From contig JADHWA010000004.1 of the NCBI GenBank assembly GCA_016783715.1, forward strand, positions 1 through 45,743: a stretch of 45,743 bases of DNA, in the 5' to 3' direction. A program made the translations under genes and the position numbers. The notes beneath the pieces were generated by a model, which was not told the origin of the DNA, did no database searches, and worked only from the letters and a program-made list of their open reading frames with translations. Shown piece after piece: positions 1,589-38,289 of this stretch. The first letter of the stretch is position 1, and the number at the start of each line of letters is the position of its first letter. Source of the stretch: Candidatus Omnitrophota bacterium. GTDB lineage: Bacteria > Omnitrophota > Gorgyraeia > Gygaellales > Profunditerraquicolaceae.

Positions 1589-2556
1589 AGGGGGAGGTTA
1601 TATTTATAGTCGGTCCGACTGCAACTGGCAAGAGCGAGGTTGCAGTTGAGTTGGCGAAACTGATTAATGCTGAGGTAATTTCTTGTGATTCAATGCAGAT
1701 TTATAAGGGGATGGATATAATAGCATCTTATCCGCCGGCTAAACTGCGGAGAAAGATTCCGCATCACCTGGTTAGTGTAGTTTCGCCTCAAAGAGAATTT
1801 AATGTTAATCAGTACCGCAGGAGGGCGCTCGGTCTCCTGCGCCGGATAATAAAGAATGGGAAGCCGGTAATATTTGTCGGCGGGACAGGGCTGTATATGT
1901 CAGTAATGATTGATGGAATCTTTAAAGGAGGGAAAGAGGATAAGCGGCTGCGCAGCAGGCTTTATCGGCTGGCTGAAAAAAAAGGCGTATCGTATATTTA
2001 CAAAAAGCTGGTGAAAGTTGATCCGGATGCTGCCAAAAGGATACATCCGCACGACAGAAAGAGGATTGTACGGGCCCTTGAGGTCTATCAGGGTACAGGT
2101 AAGCCAATTTCTGTATTGCAAAGACAGAGGCGGGGGCTTGCCGATGATTATGATATTAAGAGTTTCTATCTTGATCTAAACCGCCAAGAGCTCTATCGTA
2201 GAATAGATAGCCGTCTGCAAGGTATGTTTGAGGACGGGTTGATTAAAGAGGTTAAGAGGCTTCTGGAGACTAGATTGAGCAGAACTGCCAGCTGTGCCAT
2301 CGGTATAAAGGAGCTCAGCGAATATTTAGGCGACAGGATGGGTTTGACGGATAGTAAAGCCTTAATCAGCCGCAATACGCGCAACTACGCCAAAAGGCAG
2401 ATCAGCTGGTTCCGCAGGGACAAACGGATACAATGGATAAAAGTCAAAAAAATTGACTCACCAAAGGAGATAGCGATAAGAATATGTCAAATGATTCCCG
2501 GGCTTACGGAGCGAAAGCGAACGAAAGCCCGCAGGAAGAATTTGACCCAGCACTAA
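1585..2556 (+). CDS. miaA: tRNA dimethylallyltransferase
   Basis: N-term IFIVGPTATGKSEVAVELAKLINAEVISCDSMQIYKGMDI typical of MiaA; ATGA overlap with upstream CDS. Confidence 0.95.
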   Translation: MKGEVIFIVGPTATGKSEVAVELAKLINAEVISCDSMQIYKGMDIIASYPPAKLRRKIPHHLVSVVSPQREFNVNQYRRRALGLLRRIIKNGKPVIFVGGTGLYMSVMIDGIFKGGKEDKRLRSRLYRLAEKKGVSYIYKKLVKVDPDAAKRIHPHDRKRIVRALEVYQGTGKPISVLQRQRRGLADDYDIKSFYLDLNRQELYRRIDSRLQGMFEDGLIKEVKRLLETRLSRTASCAIGIKELSEYLGDRMGLTDSKALISRNTRNYAKRQISWFRRDKRIQWIKVKKIDSPKEIAIRICQMIPGLTERKRTKARRKNLTQH

Positions 2557-2674
2557 TTTTTTTAAAATTAGTGCTGGATTTAATTCGCGTACGCTTATAA
2601 ACTACTAAACAAGGGACGCTATATTTTACGGAAGCACATTTAAGAGCTTATCGTAAAATATACGCTTATTAAAT
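2541..2674 (+). repeat. Structured element R1, copy A (miaA-hflX)
   Basis: Hairpin CCAGCACTAATTTT/AAAATTAGTGCTGG (2547-2577); P1 ATTTAAT/ATTAAAT and GCGTA/TACGC; P2 TATTTTACG/CGTAAAATA; conserved CGCTTA...ACAAGGGACGCTA. Confidence 0.8.
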
Positions 2675-7193: not shown

Positions 7194-7388
7194 AGGCATC
7201 CAAAGGGAATAAAAATAGAGGATGCCTGATTTCAAAGATTATCCCGCACCACACTAAAAATACATATAGCGGGATCCCGTAAGGCGGGAAAAGACTAGAT
7301 TACAGAAATCAATGTTTTAATCGCTGTAATCTAAAATTAATCACAGTAATCAGGTATAATTTTTTAGATTATGCCTAATGATTATACC
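7194..7388. repeat. Composite palindromic intergenic element R2, copy 1
   Basis: AGGCATCC...GGATGCCT; core TCCCGCACC...GCGGGATCCCGTAAGGCGGGAAAAG; GATTACAG...CTGTAATC; GGTATAAT...ATTATACC hairpins. Same order as 8136-8320. Confidence 0.8.
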
Positions 7389-7399
7389 AGGAGCCGGAT

Positions 7400-8137
7400 A
7401 TGGTAAGGAATGTCGATCGTCAGTCAAGAAAAAGGGCAGTATTAGCGGCAACCATAAATAACTATATTAAAGAGGCGCAACCGGTTGCCTCAGACAACAT
7501 TGCTGATGATTTTGACCTATCTTCTGCAACGATCAGGAATATCTTCAGCGACCTTGAGGAGTCAGGATACCTTACCCACCCATATACATCCGGTGGGCGG
7601 GTGCCTACCAGCAAAGGTTACCGATACTACGTTGACTTTTTGCTTTCTCAGATGGATCTATTAAGTAGCGAGAAGGAGCGCATTGTTCGAGAGTATAAAA
7701 GGCAGATTGAGAAGCTGGAGGATGTTTTAGAGAGAACCTCTGAGATAATCTCTGTGATTACGCATTACGCGGGGATCGTCTCTTTCTTGGAGCGTCAGGA
7801 GAAGTTCTTCTACAATGGGATTAGTTGTATATTAGAGCAGCCGGAATTCCAGGATTTGGAGAAGATGCGGCTGATTATGAAAATAATCGAAGAAAAGGAG
7901 CGGCTGATGGAGATCATAAACCGTGACTTTTCCGGCAAGAGCAGGGCATATATCGGCGAAGAATTAGAGTGTCCTGAGATGAATAATTGCACACTAATTG
8001 TTTCAAGCTATAGATTAAAAGATAAACCATCAGGCAGGCTTGCGGTGCTGGGACCGATACGCATGGAGTATGACCGCACAATTTCAAGCCTGGAGTACAT
8101 CTCTGATATACTGACCGACGAATTGGAGCGTTTTTAG
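7400..8137 (+). CDS. hrcA: Heat-inducible transcription repressor HrcA, short form (245 aa)
   Basis: Winged-helix N-terminus (RKRAVLAATINNYIKEAQPVASDNIADDFDLSSATIRNIFSDLEESGYLTHPYTSGGRVPTSKGYRYYVD), C-term GRLAVLGPIRMEYDRTISSLEYI; first in hrcA-grpE-dnaK-dnaJ. Confidence 0.9.
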   Translation: MVRNVDRQSRKRAVLAATINNYIKEAQPVASDNIADDFDLSSATIRNIFSDLEESGYLTHPYTSGGRVPTSKGYRYYVDFLLSQMDLLSSEKERIVREYKRQIEKLEDVLERTSEIISVITHYAGIVSFLERQEKFFYNGISCILEQPEFQDLEKMRLIMKIIEEKERLMEIINRDFSGKSRAYIGEELECPEMNNCTLIVSSYRLKDKPSGRLAVLGPIRMEYDRTISSLEYISDILTDELERF

Positions 8138-8320
8138 ACATCCCATAATGACAAAAAGGAGGATGTCTGATTACAGAGATTATCCCGCACGAAAATTAGA
8201 ATATATAGTGGGGGTCCTTAACTAGAAAAATAGATTACAGAGATTAATGGTTTAATCGCTGTAATCGTAATTAATCACAGTAATCAGGTATAATCCATAG
8301 AGTAGACGGAGGATTATACC
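8136..8320. repeat. Composite palindromic intergenic element R2, copy 2
   Basis: AGACATCC...GGATGTCT, TGATTACAGAGATTATCCCGC, GATTACAGAGATTAATGGTTTAATCGCTGTAATC, GGTATAATCC...GGATTATACC (10-bp perfect). Confidence 0.8.
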
Positions 8321-14013: not shown

Positions 14014-14148
14014 GATGTCACCCCCACACCAATTCTGGTATAGACTTGATATTTTCGAATTGGTGTGGGGGTAAATTCGCGCACGCTTACAGATAAGGAT
14101 ACAAGGGACGCTATAACTTAGCAAAGCTAAGTTATGCGCTCATTTAAT
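14014..14148 (+). repeat. Structured element R1, copy B (DUF1015-accD)
   Basis: Hairpin ACCCCCACACCAATTC/GAATTGGTGTGGGGGT (14020-14072); P1 TAAAT/ATTTA and GCGCA/TGCGC; P2 TAACTTAGC/GCTAAGTTA; CGCTTACAGATAAGGATACAAGGGACGCTA. Confidence 0.8.
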
Positions 14149-14991
14149 ATGGCACTCTTCGGTAAACCTAAATATACAATCGTCAGGCTTAAAAAGAAAG
14201 AGATTCCCGACGGCCTCTGGACAAAATGCGATGAGTGTTCCGAGGTCCTCTTTAACAAGAAGCTCGATGAGACTCTGAAAGTCTGTCCGAAGTGCAACTA
14301 TCATTTTGTGCTGGGGGCAGGCAAGAGGATTGAATTGCTTGTTGATAAGGATACATTTTCCGAATATGACCAGGAGTTAACCTCTGTGGATCCTCTTGAT
14401 TTTAAGGGGCCAAAGACATATAAAGAGAAGATTAAGCAGGATCAGGCTGTAACCGGCTTAAAGGCAGCTGCGATTACAGGAGAGGGTGACATTTTTGGGC
14501 AAAGAATAGTGATTGGCGCTACTGACTCCCGTTTTATTATGGGATCTATGGGGTCGGTGGTCGGAGAGAAGCTTACCCGTGCAATCGAGTCGGCAACCAG
14601 AAACAATCTTCCTTTGATCATAGTCTCAGGTTCCGGCGGAGGTGCTAGGATGTATGAAGGGATGTTTAGTTTGATGCAGATGGCTAAAACTTCAGCGGCA
14701 CTGGCCCGTCATCACCAGAAAAAATTACTTTATATATCAGTTTTGACTAACCCTACTATGGCAGGGATAATGGCTTCTTTCGCCGGCCTGGGGGATATAA
14801 CCGTCGCCGAACCAAAGGCATTAATTGGTTTTACCGGACCGCGCGTAATCGAGCAGACAATCAGGCAAAAGTTACCTCCGGGGTTTCAGCGGTCTGAGTT
14901 TCTCCTGGAGCACGGTATGGTTGATCTGATAGTTCAGCGCAAGGAGCTCAAAGAGTCATTAGCCAGAATAGTCGACTATTTGAGCAAATGA
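14149..14991 (+). CDS. accD: Acetyl-CoA carboxylase carboxyltransferase subunit beta
   Basis: Zinc ribbon (CDECSEVLFNKKLDETLKVCPKC) and carboxyltransferase domain. Start set at ATG 14149 (MALFGKPKYT); the 14134 start lies in the R1 hairpin. Confidence 0.95.
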   Translation: MALFGKPKYTIVRLKKKEIPDGLWTKCDECSEVLFNKKLDETLKVCPKCNYHFVLGAGKRIELLVDKDTFSEYDQELTSVDPLDFKGPKTYKEKIKQDQAVTGLKAAAITGEGDIFGQRIVIGATDSRFIMGSMGSVVGEKLTRAIESATRNNLPLIIVSGSGGGARMYEGMFSLMQMAKTSAALARHHQKKLLYISVLTNPTMAGIMASFAGLGDITVAEPKALIGFTGPRVIEQTIRQKLPPGFQRSEFLLEHGMVDLIVQRKELKESLARIVDYLSK

Positions 14992-22405: not shown

Positions 22406-22558
22406 ACATCTTATAATGGGAAACAATAAGATGTCTTGATTACAAAGATTTTCCCGCACCAAACTAAAAAAACATATACCGGGATTCCACTGGGGCGGGA
22501 AAAGAACAAATTACAGTGATTCAGGTATAATCTATGACTATACCTCTAGGATTATACC
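22404..22558. repeat. Composite palindromic intergenic element R2, copy 3
   Basis: AGACATCTTAT/ATAAGATGTCT, TTGATTACAAAGATTTTCCCGCACCAAACTAAAAAAACATATACCGGGATTCC...GGCGGGAAAAG, GGTATAATC/GATTATACC. Confidence 0.8.
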
Positions 22559-35400: not shown

Positions 35401-35972
35401 AGATAAAAGAGATGATAAAACAGATTCAAGAGCTCAAGCTCGATAAGCAAAAGATCATATTGATCGTTGTTGTGACGCTGGTATTGGCTTACCTGGATTT
35501 TTCTTTTGTAATCGGAATGCAGTCAGGCAGCTTAAAACAGCTGAACCAGAAGATAAGTAAGGTTAAGAGCGATATCGATAATACCAAAAGAGAATTAATC
35601 AGGATGCAGCAGTTAGAGGGGGCCCCGGAGAAGGCTAAGCTGGTTACCAAGGAGTTTATAGCCGAAGAGGGAATCCCTATGTTGCTCAGTGAGATATCTA
35701 ATATATCAAATAAGGATAAAATTAAAATTACCCAGATAGAGCCTTTGAAGAATCCCGACCGAATCCCTGATTTACCGGGTGCGGCCAATTTATTGCCGGT
35801 TGCGATTGATTTAGAAATCACAGGAGGATATCATCAGCTGGGGGCCTTCTTGTCTGATTTAGAGAACTCTGCAAACTTTATCGCAGTCAATCAAATCAGT
35901 ATAATTTCGCAGGGGGATGATTATAATATACAGCGGATCAGCCTAAGATTGATCACATATGCCAGTGGATAA
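35397..35972 (+). CDS. pilO: PilO-like protein
   Basis: One TM, coiled coil, GGYHQLGAFLSDLENSANFIAVNQISI; syntenic position. Confidence 0.82.
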   Translation: MKIKEMIKQIQELKLDKQKIILIVVVTLVLAYLDFSFVIGMQSGSLKQLNQKISKVKSDIDNTKRELIRMQQLEGAPEKAKLVTKEFIAEEGIPMLLSEISNISNKDKIKITQIEPLKNPDRIPDLPGAANLLPVAIDLEITGGYHQLGAFLSDLENSANFIAVNQISIISQGDDYNIQRISLRLITYASG

Positions 35973-36366
35973 AATTAAACCAATTCATGTCAGCGGATTC
36001 AGAGGGCAAATTTTGTTAGGAATATTTCTTTTTAGTTATATACTATTTGTGATAGCTGGAACTGTCTATGCAGAGAATGAAAGTCAGTTTAAGTATGATG
36101 CTGCAGGTAAACGAAATCCTTTTATACCTTTGATCACCCCTGACGGAAGGCTGCTTAATCTAGATACAGTAGTTACCGAGACCGGCCTGGTTTTAGAGGG
36201 GGTCATATTTGATCAACAGGGTGAGTCTTTCGCACTGATTAACGGGAAAGTTTTTAAGGTGGGCGATAGCGTAGATGATTATACGGTTTTAGATATCGAT
36301 AAAGGCAGAGTAAATTTATTAAAGGCTGGTCAGCTTTACGTCTTAGAGACCAAGAAGGGTGAATGA
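35959..36366 (+). CDS. PilP-like protein
   Basis: KRNPFIPLITPDG...LEGVIFDQQGESFALINGKVFKVGDSVDDYTVLDI; between pilO and secretin. Confidence 0.7.
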   Translation: MPVDKIKPIHVSGFRGQILLGIFLFSYILFVIAGTVYAENESQFKYDAAGKRNPFIPLITPDGRLLNLDTVVTETGLVLEGVIFDQQGESFALINGKVFKVGDSVDDYTVLDIDKGRVNLLKAGQLYVLETKKGE

Positions 36367-36546
36367 CCCCGCACCCAGCTTTGTATCGGTAAGCTATACG
36401 AAGGCTGGGTGCGGGGGAATTTGTCCCCCCTGTATTATTGTACAATACAAAGGGGGGATTAATTCGCAGACGCTGGAAATTAAATTAGTAATGCGGCTAT
36501 CCTTGACATCGTAGATGTCAAGGATCTGCTCATTAAAGGAGGGGAA
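36361..36546 (+). repeat. Structured element R1, copy C (pilP-pilQ), with extra upstream hairpin
   Basis: CCCCGCACCCAGC/GCTGGGTGCGGGG (36367-36416); CCCCCCTGTATT/AATACAAAGGGGGG; P1 TTAAT/ATTAA and GCAGA/TCTGC; P2 TCCTTGACATC/GATGTCAAGGA; CGCTGG...ATGCGGCTA. Confidence 0.75.
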
Positions 36547-38289
36547 GTGAAGCAGATTAGAATCCCAACACTTTTGAGAATATTTTTTATTTCGCTCTTG
36601 ATTTATTTTTTCTCAACCTCGGGCGCAGCCTACCTTGACGATGCCTCGGCTCTCTCGGAGGAGCCGCAAACTACTGATCAACAAACAGCTAAGGGAGAAC
36701 CGGTACGCACCAATCTATTGCCGGATCAGCTGGTTAGTGATACTCCGGTTGATGACCAGCAGGTAGATGAGCTACCGGATCTGGATATATCAGTTAGTCA
36801 GCAATCAGTGCCGGAAGTAGAAGTTCAAGTCGCCTCAATCAAAAAAAGCGATGCTTCTACGGATCCCGGGAATGTGACTCTGGATTTTAAGGATGCCGAT
36901 ATCCGTAACGTCTTGAGGTTGATATCTTACAAGGCACGGGTGAACATCGTGGCAACCCCGGAGGTACTTGGAAATGTTACCATCAGGCTATTTGATGTCC
37001 CCTGGGAGAAGGCCTTAAATACCATAGTCACCGCATACGGTTATGGATATGAGTGGCTTAATAATAAGGTGATCATGGTATCTACTTTAGAGAAATTAGC
37101 TGAGCAGCGCCTGGCCCAGGACGCAGCAGCCGCCAACGAACCTCTGGATACCCAGACTTTCAGATTGAATTACTCAAGGAGCGAAGATATTATGAAGTCG
37201 ATCGAGACTTTGGTCTCCCCGCGCGGAAAAATTACCCTTGAATCCCGCACTAATACTCTGATCGTTAGAGAAACAAAGACCAATCTTATAAGGATCGGCG
37301 AAATCATAAAGTCCCTGGATAAGATGACTCCTCAGGTGATGATCGAGGCCAAGATCATAGAGACTACGCTCGGAGATACAGAGAACTTAGGCATAGACTG
37401 GACTATAGAGGTAGCCTTGAGTGGTTCTGCGCGGCCAACCTCATTTCCTTTTCAGACTGATGCTTATAAGGGTACCGGGAATAAGATGTTTCCATACATG
37501 GAGTCGCCGGATCATATGGAGACGACCACAACTACCACTCAGAGCGAAACAGGAGTTGTCTTAAGCACAACTACAACTCAGGAAGTTTTCAACACTCTGG
37601 TTCGAGGTTTTCCTGCAGTGGCAGCCAACGCCTTCACCTACGGCACTCTGGATTTTTCACAGTTTCAGACGGTCTTAGAGATCTTAAAGAAAAGAACCGA
37701 TACCAAGGTGCTTTCAAATCCGCGGATTACAACCCTTAATAATCAGCAAGCTGAGATCCTGGTTGGCTCTATCGTCCCGATACCGAATTATGAATATAGT
37801 AAAGATACCGGGACCAGGGTAGTCTCCGGCTATACGGATCAGAAGATCGGGATTGGCCTGACGGTAACCCCTAACATTAACGAAGAGGATTATGTTACCT
37901 TGATTGTTGAGCCGACTATCGATCAGATTACCGGATTCACCGGGCCGAATAATGAGAGACCGATAATATCCACCCGTAACGCCCAGACCAATGTGATGAT
38001 TAAAGACGGCGAGACCCTGGTAATCGGAGGGTTGATCGCCGAGAAAAAGATAGAGTTCGAGAAGAAAGTTCCCATTTTGGGTGATATACCGATAATCAAA
38101 TATTTATTTAGCAAGAAAGAGCATAGTATCGACAGGACAGAACTCTTGATATTTATAACCCCTTATATCATCAGAGACTCTACGATCGGCTCGCCTACTG
38201 CAATTGCTCGACTCCAGCAGCAGTTTAGTGATGCCATCCTCCAGCAGTCAGGAATCATAGATGATAGGAAGAGAGAAAAAAAAGAATAG
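36547..38289 (+). CDS. pilQ: Type IV pilus secretin PilQ
   Basis: STN-like VTLDFKDADIRNVLRLISYKARVNIVATPEV, secretin domain VLSNPRITTLNNQQAEILVGSIVPI, VIGGLIAEKKIEFEKKVPILGDIPIIKYLF; GTG start with AGGAGG. Confidence 0.93.
   Translation: MKQIRIPTLLRIFFISLLIYFFSTSGAAYLDDASALSEEPQTTDQQTAKGEPVRTNLLPDQLVSDTPVDDQQVDELPDLDISVSQQSVPEVEVQVASIKKSDASTDPGNVTLDFKDADIRNVLRLISYKARVNIVATPEVLGNVTIRLFDVPWEKALNTIVTAYGYGYEWLNNKVIMVSTLEKLAEQRLAQDAAAANEPLDTQTFRLNYSRSEDIMKSIETLVSPRGKITLESRTNTLIVRETKTNLIRIGEIIKSLDKMTPQVMIEAKIIETTLGDTENLGIDWTIEVALSGSARPTSFPFQTDAYKGTGNKMFPYMESPDHMETTTTTTQSETGVVLSTTTTQEVFNTLVRGFPAVAANAFTYGTLDFSQFQTVLEILKKRTDTKVLSNPRITTLNNQQAEILVGSIVPIPNYEYSKDTGTRVVSGYTDQKIGIGLTVTPNINEEDYVTLIVEPTIDQITGFTGPNNERPIISTRNAQTNVMIKDGETLVIGGLIAEKKIEFEKKVPILGDIPIIKYLFSKKEHSIDRTELLIFITPYIIRDSTIGSPTAIARLQQQFSDAILQQSGIIDDRKREKKE

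Follow-up and report, generated by a model that had tools for sequence, protein, structure and literature searches.

The structure in front of the pilQ-like secretin gene is probably a non-autonomous mobile doublet of palindromic units, REPIN-like in nature, apparently restricted to the Omnitrophota and confined to intercistronic junctions. It lies in a 45,743-nt stretch of DNA (the window) from a metagenome-assembled genome of 716,592 bp in 45 contigs, 65% complete, where it spans positions 36362-36536 as one member among about 60 related units of this 0.72-Mb Omnitrophota genome. The original prediction had taken it for the third copy of a repeat; the copy before pilQ is real, and the family turned out to be larger. 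What could be established for the doublet is its anatomy, its presence or absence at orthologous sites, its amplification within the genome and a strict rule of position at stop and start codons.

Regions upstream of the R unit revealed an L unit and a spacer hairpin (H0), which together with R make up an inverted doublet (Table 1). The R unit follows the grammar AAT-TC-stem-TC-ATT, and the L unit, either AAT-GA-stem-GA-ATT or AAGT-GA-stem-GA-ACTT, is its reverse-complement form. In the copy before pilQ (copy C), every sequence feature originally described at 36361-36546 is present (P1, P1b, the 29-nt middle and the 11-bp P2), and the R1 covariance model recognises the R unit with 72.8 bits (E 7e-15). 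The extra GC-rich hairpin noticed upstream also exists, with a stem of 13 bp (36367-36379 / 36404-36416), and corresponds to the L unit, an inverted R-type unit; its closure by AATGA..GAATT (minus strand in the motif scan), as well as the H0 hairpin, had gone unnoticed. This L unit, where GAATTTGTCC begins at 36417, houses the TGA (36364-36366) of the pilP-like gene, whose C-terminus resembles those of the upstream ORFs in relatives. H0 behaves as an independent hairpin in the RNA fold, and its counterparts in other doublets are variable CCC..GGG hairpins, usually with CC at the start and GG at the end.

Table 1. Features of the doublet before pilQ (copy C) and of the two other copies in the window.
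Feature	Position	Strand	Basis or remark
Upstream gene, pilP position	35959..36366	+	ORF list; TGA stop inside L unit; no Pfam match
L unit, AAT-GA-(CCCCGCACCCAGC..GCTGGGTGCGGGG)-GA-ATT	36362..36421	-	Sequence, motif scan, L-unit position rule
H0 spacer hairpin TCCCCCCTGTATT..AATACAAAGGGGGGA, between L and R	36424..36458	+	Sequence, RNA fold
R unit (R1-C), TTAAT-TC-GCAGA-(29-nt middle)-P2-TCTGC-TC-ATTAA	36459..36536	+	Covariance model, pair counts, motif scan
P1 outer helix TTAAT/ATTAA	36459-36463 / 36532-36536		Copy C R unit
P1b GCAGA/TCTGC	36466-36470 / 36525-36529		Copy C R unit; TC/TC internal loop parts P1b from outer helix
Middle segment CGCTGGAAATTAAATTAGTAATGCGGCTA (CGCTGG..ATGCGGCTA), 29 nt	36471..36499	+	26-copy alignment; relatives
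P2 hairpin, 11 bp, TCCTTGACATC/GATGTCAAGGA	36500-36510 / 36514-36524 (whole 36500..36524)	+	Alignment, motif scan
AGGAGG Shine-Dalgarno, directly 3' of R unit	36537..36542	+	Sequence; relative G016
pilQ-like secretin gene, GTG start	36547..38289	+	Pfam Secretin PF00263, E 2e-48
Copy A, L unit	2487..2545	-	Motif scan; in-frame fusion to miaA 3' end (miaA: Pfam IPPT)
Copy A, R unit	2579..2673	+	R1 model 79.5 bits; empty site in relatives
Copy B, R unit	14071..14147	+	R1 model 80.3 bits; empty site in relatives

In the two other copies in the window, the ATG of hflX (2675), whose product has the GTPase domains, comes 1 nt after the R unit of copy A, and that of accD (~14151-14152) just after the R unit of copy B, for which no L unit could be recognised. 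In copy A (2480-2556), the reading frame of miaA continues through the L unit, which thereby forms its C-terminus, and the miaA stop codon falls within the H0 hairpin. A second dispersed repeat, distinct from the R and L units, was also seen in the window: TCTGATTTCAAAGATTATCCCGCAC.. occurs at 7212-7360, 8153-8294 and 22422-22483, around hrcA (7400-8137) as well as ahead of a gene for a UDP-sugar dehydrogenase, and is followed by AATTAATCACAGTAATCAGGTATAAT in two of the copies.

In the source genome, the core AATTCGCNNACGCT occurs exactly 16 times, the P2 arm TCCTTGACATC nine times, and the R1 model finds about 30 strong copies. A generic motif, consisting of a stem set off by TC/TC from an outer helix closed by T and A on its inner side, gave 79 matches in 713,684 bp, compared with 2, 1, 3, 7 and 1 in five shuffled genomes. 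The stems had been predicted to covary, and they do so clearly: in an alignment of 26 R copies, 94.2% of the cells are paired, compensatory changes affect 14 of the 20 pairs, and the covariation score reaches 0.616, whereas controls with a slid partner do not exceed 0.110 and shuffles average 0.172. Complete L-H0-R doublets, of which 48 were collected (15 in the source genome and 33 elsewhere), come from many genera, with L and R spaced most often by 40-80 or 100-130 nt, and a consensus over many genera reads TAAGTGA.GGACAT..ATGTCC.GAACTTACC-H0-GGTTAATTC.GCAGAC..GTCTGC.TCATTAA. In relatives, the 29-nt middle of the R unit frequently takes the form of a short hairpin, for instance GGCC..GGCC, or is missing. 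A tandem pair of R units, the first one lacking its own 3' arm, was observed before purH (G000 C36:12749-12906; L025/L026).

With regard to its range, the R1 model was positive in 29 of 40 related genomes, with 0 to ~44 copies per genome, and, with a stricter threshold, in 26 of 145 genomes sampled from the whole phylum, a patchy distribution. When 84,980 species genomes were scanned for the exact pattern, at least 118 stretches were detected, nearly all of them from Omnitrophota/Omnitrophica among the matches listed, which strongly suggests that the family is restricted to this phylum. The pattern also appears on contigs CAKKQI010000109 (L171), SBBM01000019 (L190) and DAOWBV010000188 (L222), labelled as Brocadiaceae, Planctomycetales and Planctomycetota, respectively; these labels are probably wrong. 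The same kind of scan over viral contigs gave no match. A search of Rfam 15 returned no match at gathering score in the window, and the sub-threshold, microRNA-like matches at the locus were discarded as generic hairpins. A survey of the Omnitrophota leaves repeats and palindromes unmentioned (PMC10066038), and searches of the literature on Omnitrophota/Omnitrophica together with palindromic, structured-RNA or transposable elements produced nothing relevant. Altogether, this previously unlisted family of palindromic doublets is best called a new, apparently phylum-restricted REPIN-like variant.

Orthologous junctions were compared for the three copies of the window. R1 is present in none of the 29 junctions orthologous to that of copy B (DUF1015|accD), where the gaps are mostly below 25 nt, in none of 28 for copy A (miaA|hflX), where the genes often overlap or abut, and in none of ten pilP|pilQ-type junctions for copy C, where the genes overlap in most of the closer relatives. 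The pilP/pilQ junction of one relative, G016, reads ATTAAAGGAGGGGGAATAATG, close to the sequence that follows the R unit in copy C, so the Shine-Dalgarno of the latter appears to be native. Moreover, three stems are amplified in the source genome (CCCTTGCATGCAAGGG with 11 copies, CCCCCCACCACTTTTT with 24 and CCCCGCACCCAG with 16), each of them with no copy in 0.9 Mb of relatives' loci, unlike other H0 stems that are common to several genera. The empty orthologous junctions, the copy numbers of 0 to ~44 between genera and the stems amplified in a single genome therefore indicate that the copies are insertions. The clearest footprint of a recent insertion is found at L174 (around 2560, reverse strand), where the doublet is flanked on both sides by an exact 15-bp direct duplication, ATTTGAGGTGGTTAA, which spans the Shine-Dalgarno. 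Such target-site duplications are not general: over 51 doublets they were no commoner than with swapped flanks (p 0.62), and only three scored 9 or more. At the miaA-hflX junction of another genus (L299, genome G004), a different palindrome, GGGGTCAGAATTATTTT..AAAATAATTCTGACCCC, occupies the same place.

The insertions almost always obey a precise rule of position: the L unit starts at the stop codon of the preceding gene, and the R unit finishes either 0-2 nt short of the ATG or immediately ahead of the Shine-Dalgarno. Taking orientation from the unit type only, 45 of the 48 complete doublets are in sense and one in antisense. A sense start follows R in 41, a stop codon lies at L in 34 and both are found in 30; these gene contexts come from a simple longest-ORF caller, with which single assignments can be wrong. 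The commonest offsets between L and the stop are -1, seen in 20 cases where TAAGTGA provides the TAA, and +3, seen in nine where AATGA provides the TGA; those between R and the start fall into two tight modes, 0-2 and 10-15 nt. Within the source genome, a sense start codon closely follows 44 of the units; in most cases it lies at +1/+2, or at +9 to +17 where a Shine-Dalgarno intervenes. A second group of 20 units starts on the stop of the preceding gene, most often at -3 or -7, and the two groups are split almost perfectly between R-type and L-type stems. A few R units (L060, L070, L078 and L082) do not precede any recognised protein gene; two of them, L060 and L078, are followed by GC-rich sequences that resemble each other (..GGGTGCCCTCTCC..) and might represent a non-coding RNA gene.

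Such a bias, together with the exact abutment on codons, is stricter than expected from random extragenic insertion, and it could mean selection for an effect in the mRNA. The doublet would then be kept for a role in the transcript between cistrons, either because L, at the stop codon, shields the upstream message at its 3' end and R, before the Shine-Dalgarno, the downstream one at its 5' end, or because folding brings stop and start close again and preserves translational coupling. We regard this explanation as a minority possibility, although the best placed of the alternatives. Beyond the offsets and the sense orientation just described, it would fit the very stable hairpins predicted for the RNA. 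On the other hand, relatives keep the orthologous junctions without any doublet, the P1 outer helix is missing from the minimum free energy folds of copies B and C, and the downstream genes have no function in common: they are mostly unrelated, and a comparison of 103 proteins revealed 15 homologous pairs, with glnA (4) and purH (3) the most frequent. The pattern of mismatches also speaks against it. A pairing kept via the transcript should tolerate G.U above A.C, as seen in the tRNA acceptor stems of the same DNA (14:1), whereas over 255 R copies the ratio of G.U to A.C was 62:74 in total (P2, 24:41; P1b, 11:11; outer helix, 27:22). This lack of G.U excess speaks for a pairing that is kept up, or regenerated, as DNA. 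For the one-orientation, exact-codon placement, the conservative answer is a site preference plus the survival of harmless insertions, and the bolder one an effect at the level of the transcript.

If the doublet moves as DNA, the question is by which enzyme. REPINs are inverted doublets of REPs that spread within genomes and form hairpins (PMC3116915), and REPs have a GTAG-type head and are linked to RAYTs, which the same REPs flank (PMC2817692). The original prediction had proposed a REP-doublet transposition substrate and a search for a RAYT/Y1 partner. The first part fits the architecture, the empty orthologous sites, the variable copy number and the absence of RNA-type G.U tolerance; the partner did not appear. 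No Y1/RAYT transposase (PF01797, Y1_Tnp) was found in the 65%-complete source genome. Y1_Tnp genes occur in 30 of the 40 related genomes, and they are absent from the copy-rich G000 (44 copies), G003 (15), G011 (15), G023 (9) and G026 (11; 94% complete), while the Y1-rich G028 and G037 hold two R1 copies each. Around 30 Y1 loci of relatives, the R1 model gave no match and the generic motif a single, chance-like one, and with no association in the 65%-complete genome, the 40 relatives or these loci, the RAYT/Y1 link was rejected. A true REPIN, whose mobilising RAYT/IS200-type Y1 transposase would have its gene in the 35% of the genome that is missing, is therefore improbable, even if the traits described for REPINs (PMC3116915, PMC2817692), namely abundant intergenic copies and an inverted doublet in which the palindrome encloses a non-complementary stretch, are matched here. 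A search for autonomous copies, with a gene flanked by L and R, revealed no transposase between the units, and the six ORFs checked were ordinary genes.

The likeness to REPINs is nevertheless extensive, and comprises a pair of inverted palindromic units around a spacer, numerous copies in one genome, extragenic location, compensatory changes in the stems and presence/absence variation. The Omnitrophota units differ in that they end in AATTC/TCATT (AATGA/GAATT) with a TC/TC (GA/GA) mismatch and no GTAG or GTGG-type head, in the variable third hairpin between the units, and in that no Y1/RAYT gene flanked by them was found in the source genome (65% complete) or at the 30 Y1 loci of relatives. 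Moreover, REPIN doublets have been described as random in extragenic space (PMC3116915), whereas the Omnitrophota doublet is sharply peaked on stop and start codons and biased 45:1 to the sense orientation. A second parallel is offered by the CGTC-tagged REPs, abundant palindromic repeats, often dimers, with short loops and an unpaired CGTC end, and likewise without a dedicated transposase (PMC3733652). The units of the Omnitrophota end instead in AAT/ATT helices; any CGTC is confined to the R stem, in some of the copies, and no unpaired tag is present. The ends of IS200/IS605 elements carry a hairpin foot beside a guide-like sequence able to pair with the terminal nucleotides. A hairpin foot next to a guide-like sequence is also found here, but the hairpins are inverted and not direct, and no transposase gene lies nearby.

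Much less can be said for a cis-regulatory RNA with a pairing switch, which was proposed from the presence in copies A and C of an upstream GAATT able to pair with the AATTC of P1. GAATT is an arm of the L unit, where its partner is the left AATGA side of that same unit, and its long-range complementarity to AATTC exists because L mirrors R. Many doublets have GAACTT as this arm, with AAGT for its partner on the left of the unit, which breaks the long-range pairing while AATTC stays invariant. Forced RNA folds favoured neither alternative consistently. In copy C the alternative (-87.8 kcal/mol) comes near the unconstrained minimum (-88.3) and P1 costs more (-83.2), but in copy A the alternative (-64.5) is 5.5 kcal/mol worse than the fold with P1 (-70.0), and in copy B, with -52.3 free and -46.8 with P1, it falls to -29.5, about 23 kcal/mol worse. 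The switch is thus supported by neither covariation nor energetics, and with no Rfam family at gathering score and no function shared by the genes, we consider it very improbable. A riboswitch with a gene-set logic was rejected, since the downstream genes are unrelated.

Returning to the mobile doublet, its unit would be recognised as DNA, in the form of a hairpin in which a symmetric TC/TC mismatch, GA/GA on the opposite strand, parts the stem from the basal helix (..AAT/ATT..), and an enzyme acting in trans, possibly transposase-like, would copy or move the doublet to new sites. The sense-only placement at junctions would come from site-specific insertion, from the stop codons that the left end itself supplies (the TAA or TGA of TAAGTGA/CAAATGA) and from a right end that spares the Shine-Dalgarno or ATG of the next gene, such that these insertions alone would survive. 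The mostly unrelated downstream genes also favour the mobile reading. Against it count that neither a mobilising enzyme nor an autonomous copy was found, that duplications are not general, and that glnA (four times) and purH (three times) recur downstream in different genomes. A bolder version, which we consider improbable, sees a phylum-specific and translationally transparent mobile doublet, whose left end would carry the stop codon, whose right end would leave the Shine-Dalgarno or start bare and whose hairpins would rejoin stop and start in the transcript, so that it could colonise operon junctions, moved by a putative non-Y1 enzyme.

Dispersed palindromes are usually described as lying anywhere between genes, whereas the Omnitrophota doublet marks the translation signals themselves, with a unit on the stop, its mirror image before the start and a single orientation, a pattern that spans genera of a phylum with almost no isolates. 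Where the ATG lies 0-2 nt past the R hairpin, as in S10 and L3 (L054 and L046, named from their N-terminal sequences), accD (~14152) and hflX (2675), the Shine-Dalgarno is absent, which raises the question of how these genes are translated. If the doublet acts in the mRNA, it would represent a new mode of operon organisation. If it is mobile, selfish DNA can enter operons without breaking them, and a new hairpin-recognising enzyme would be implied.
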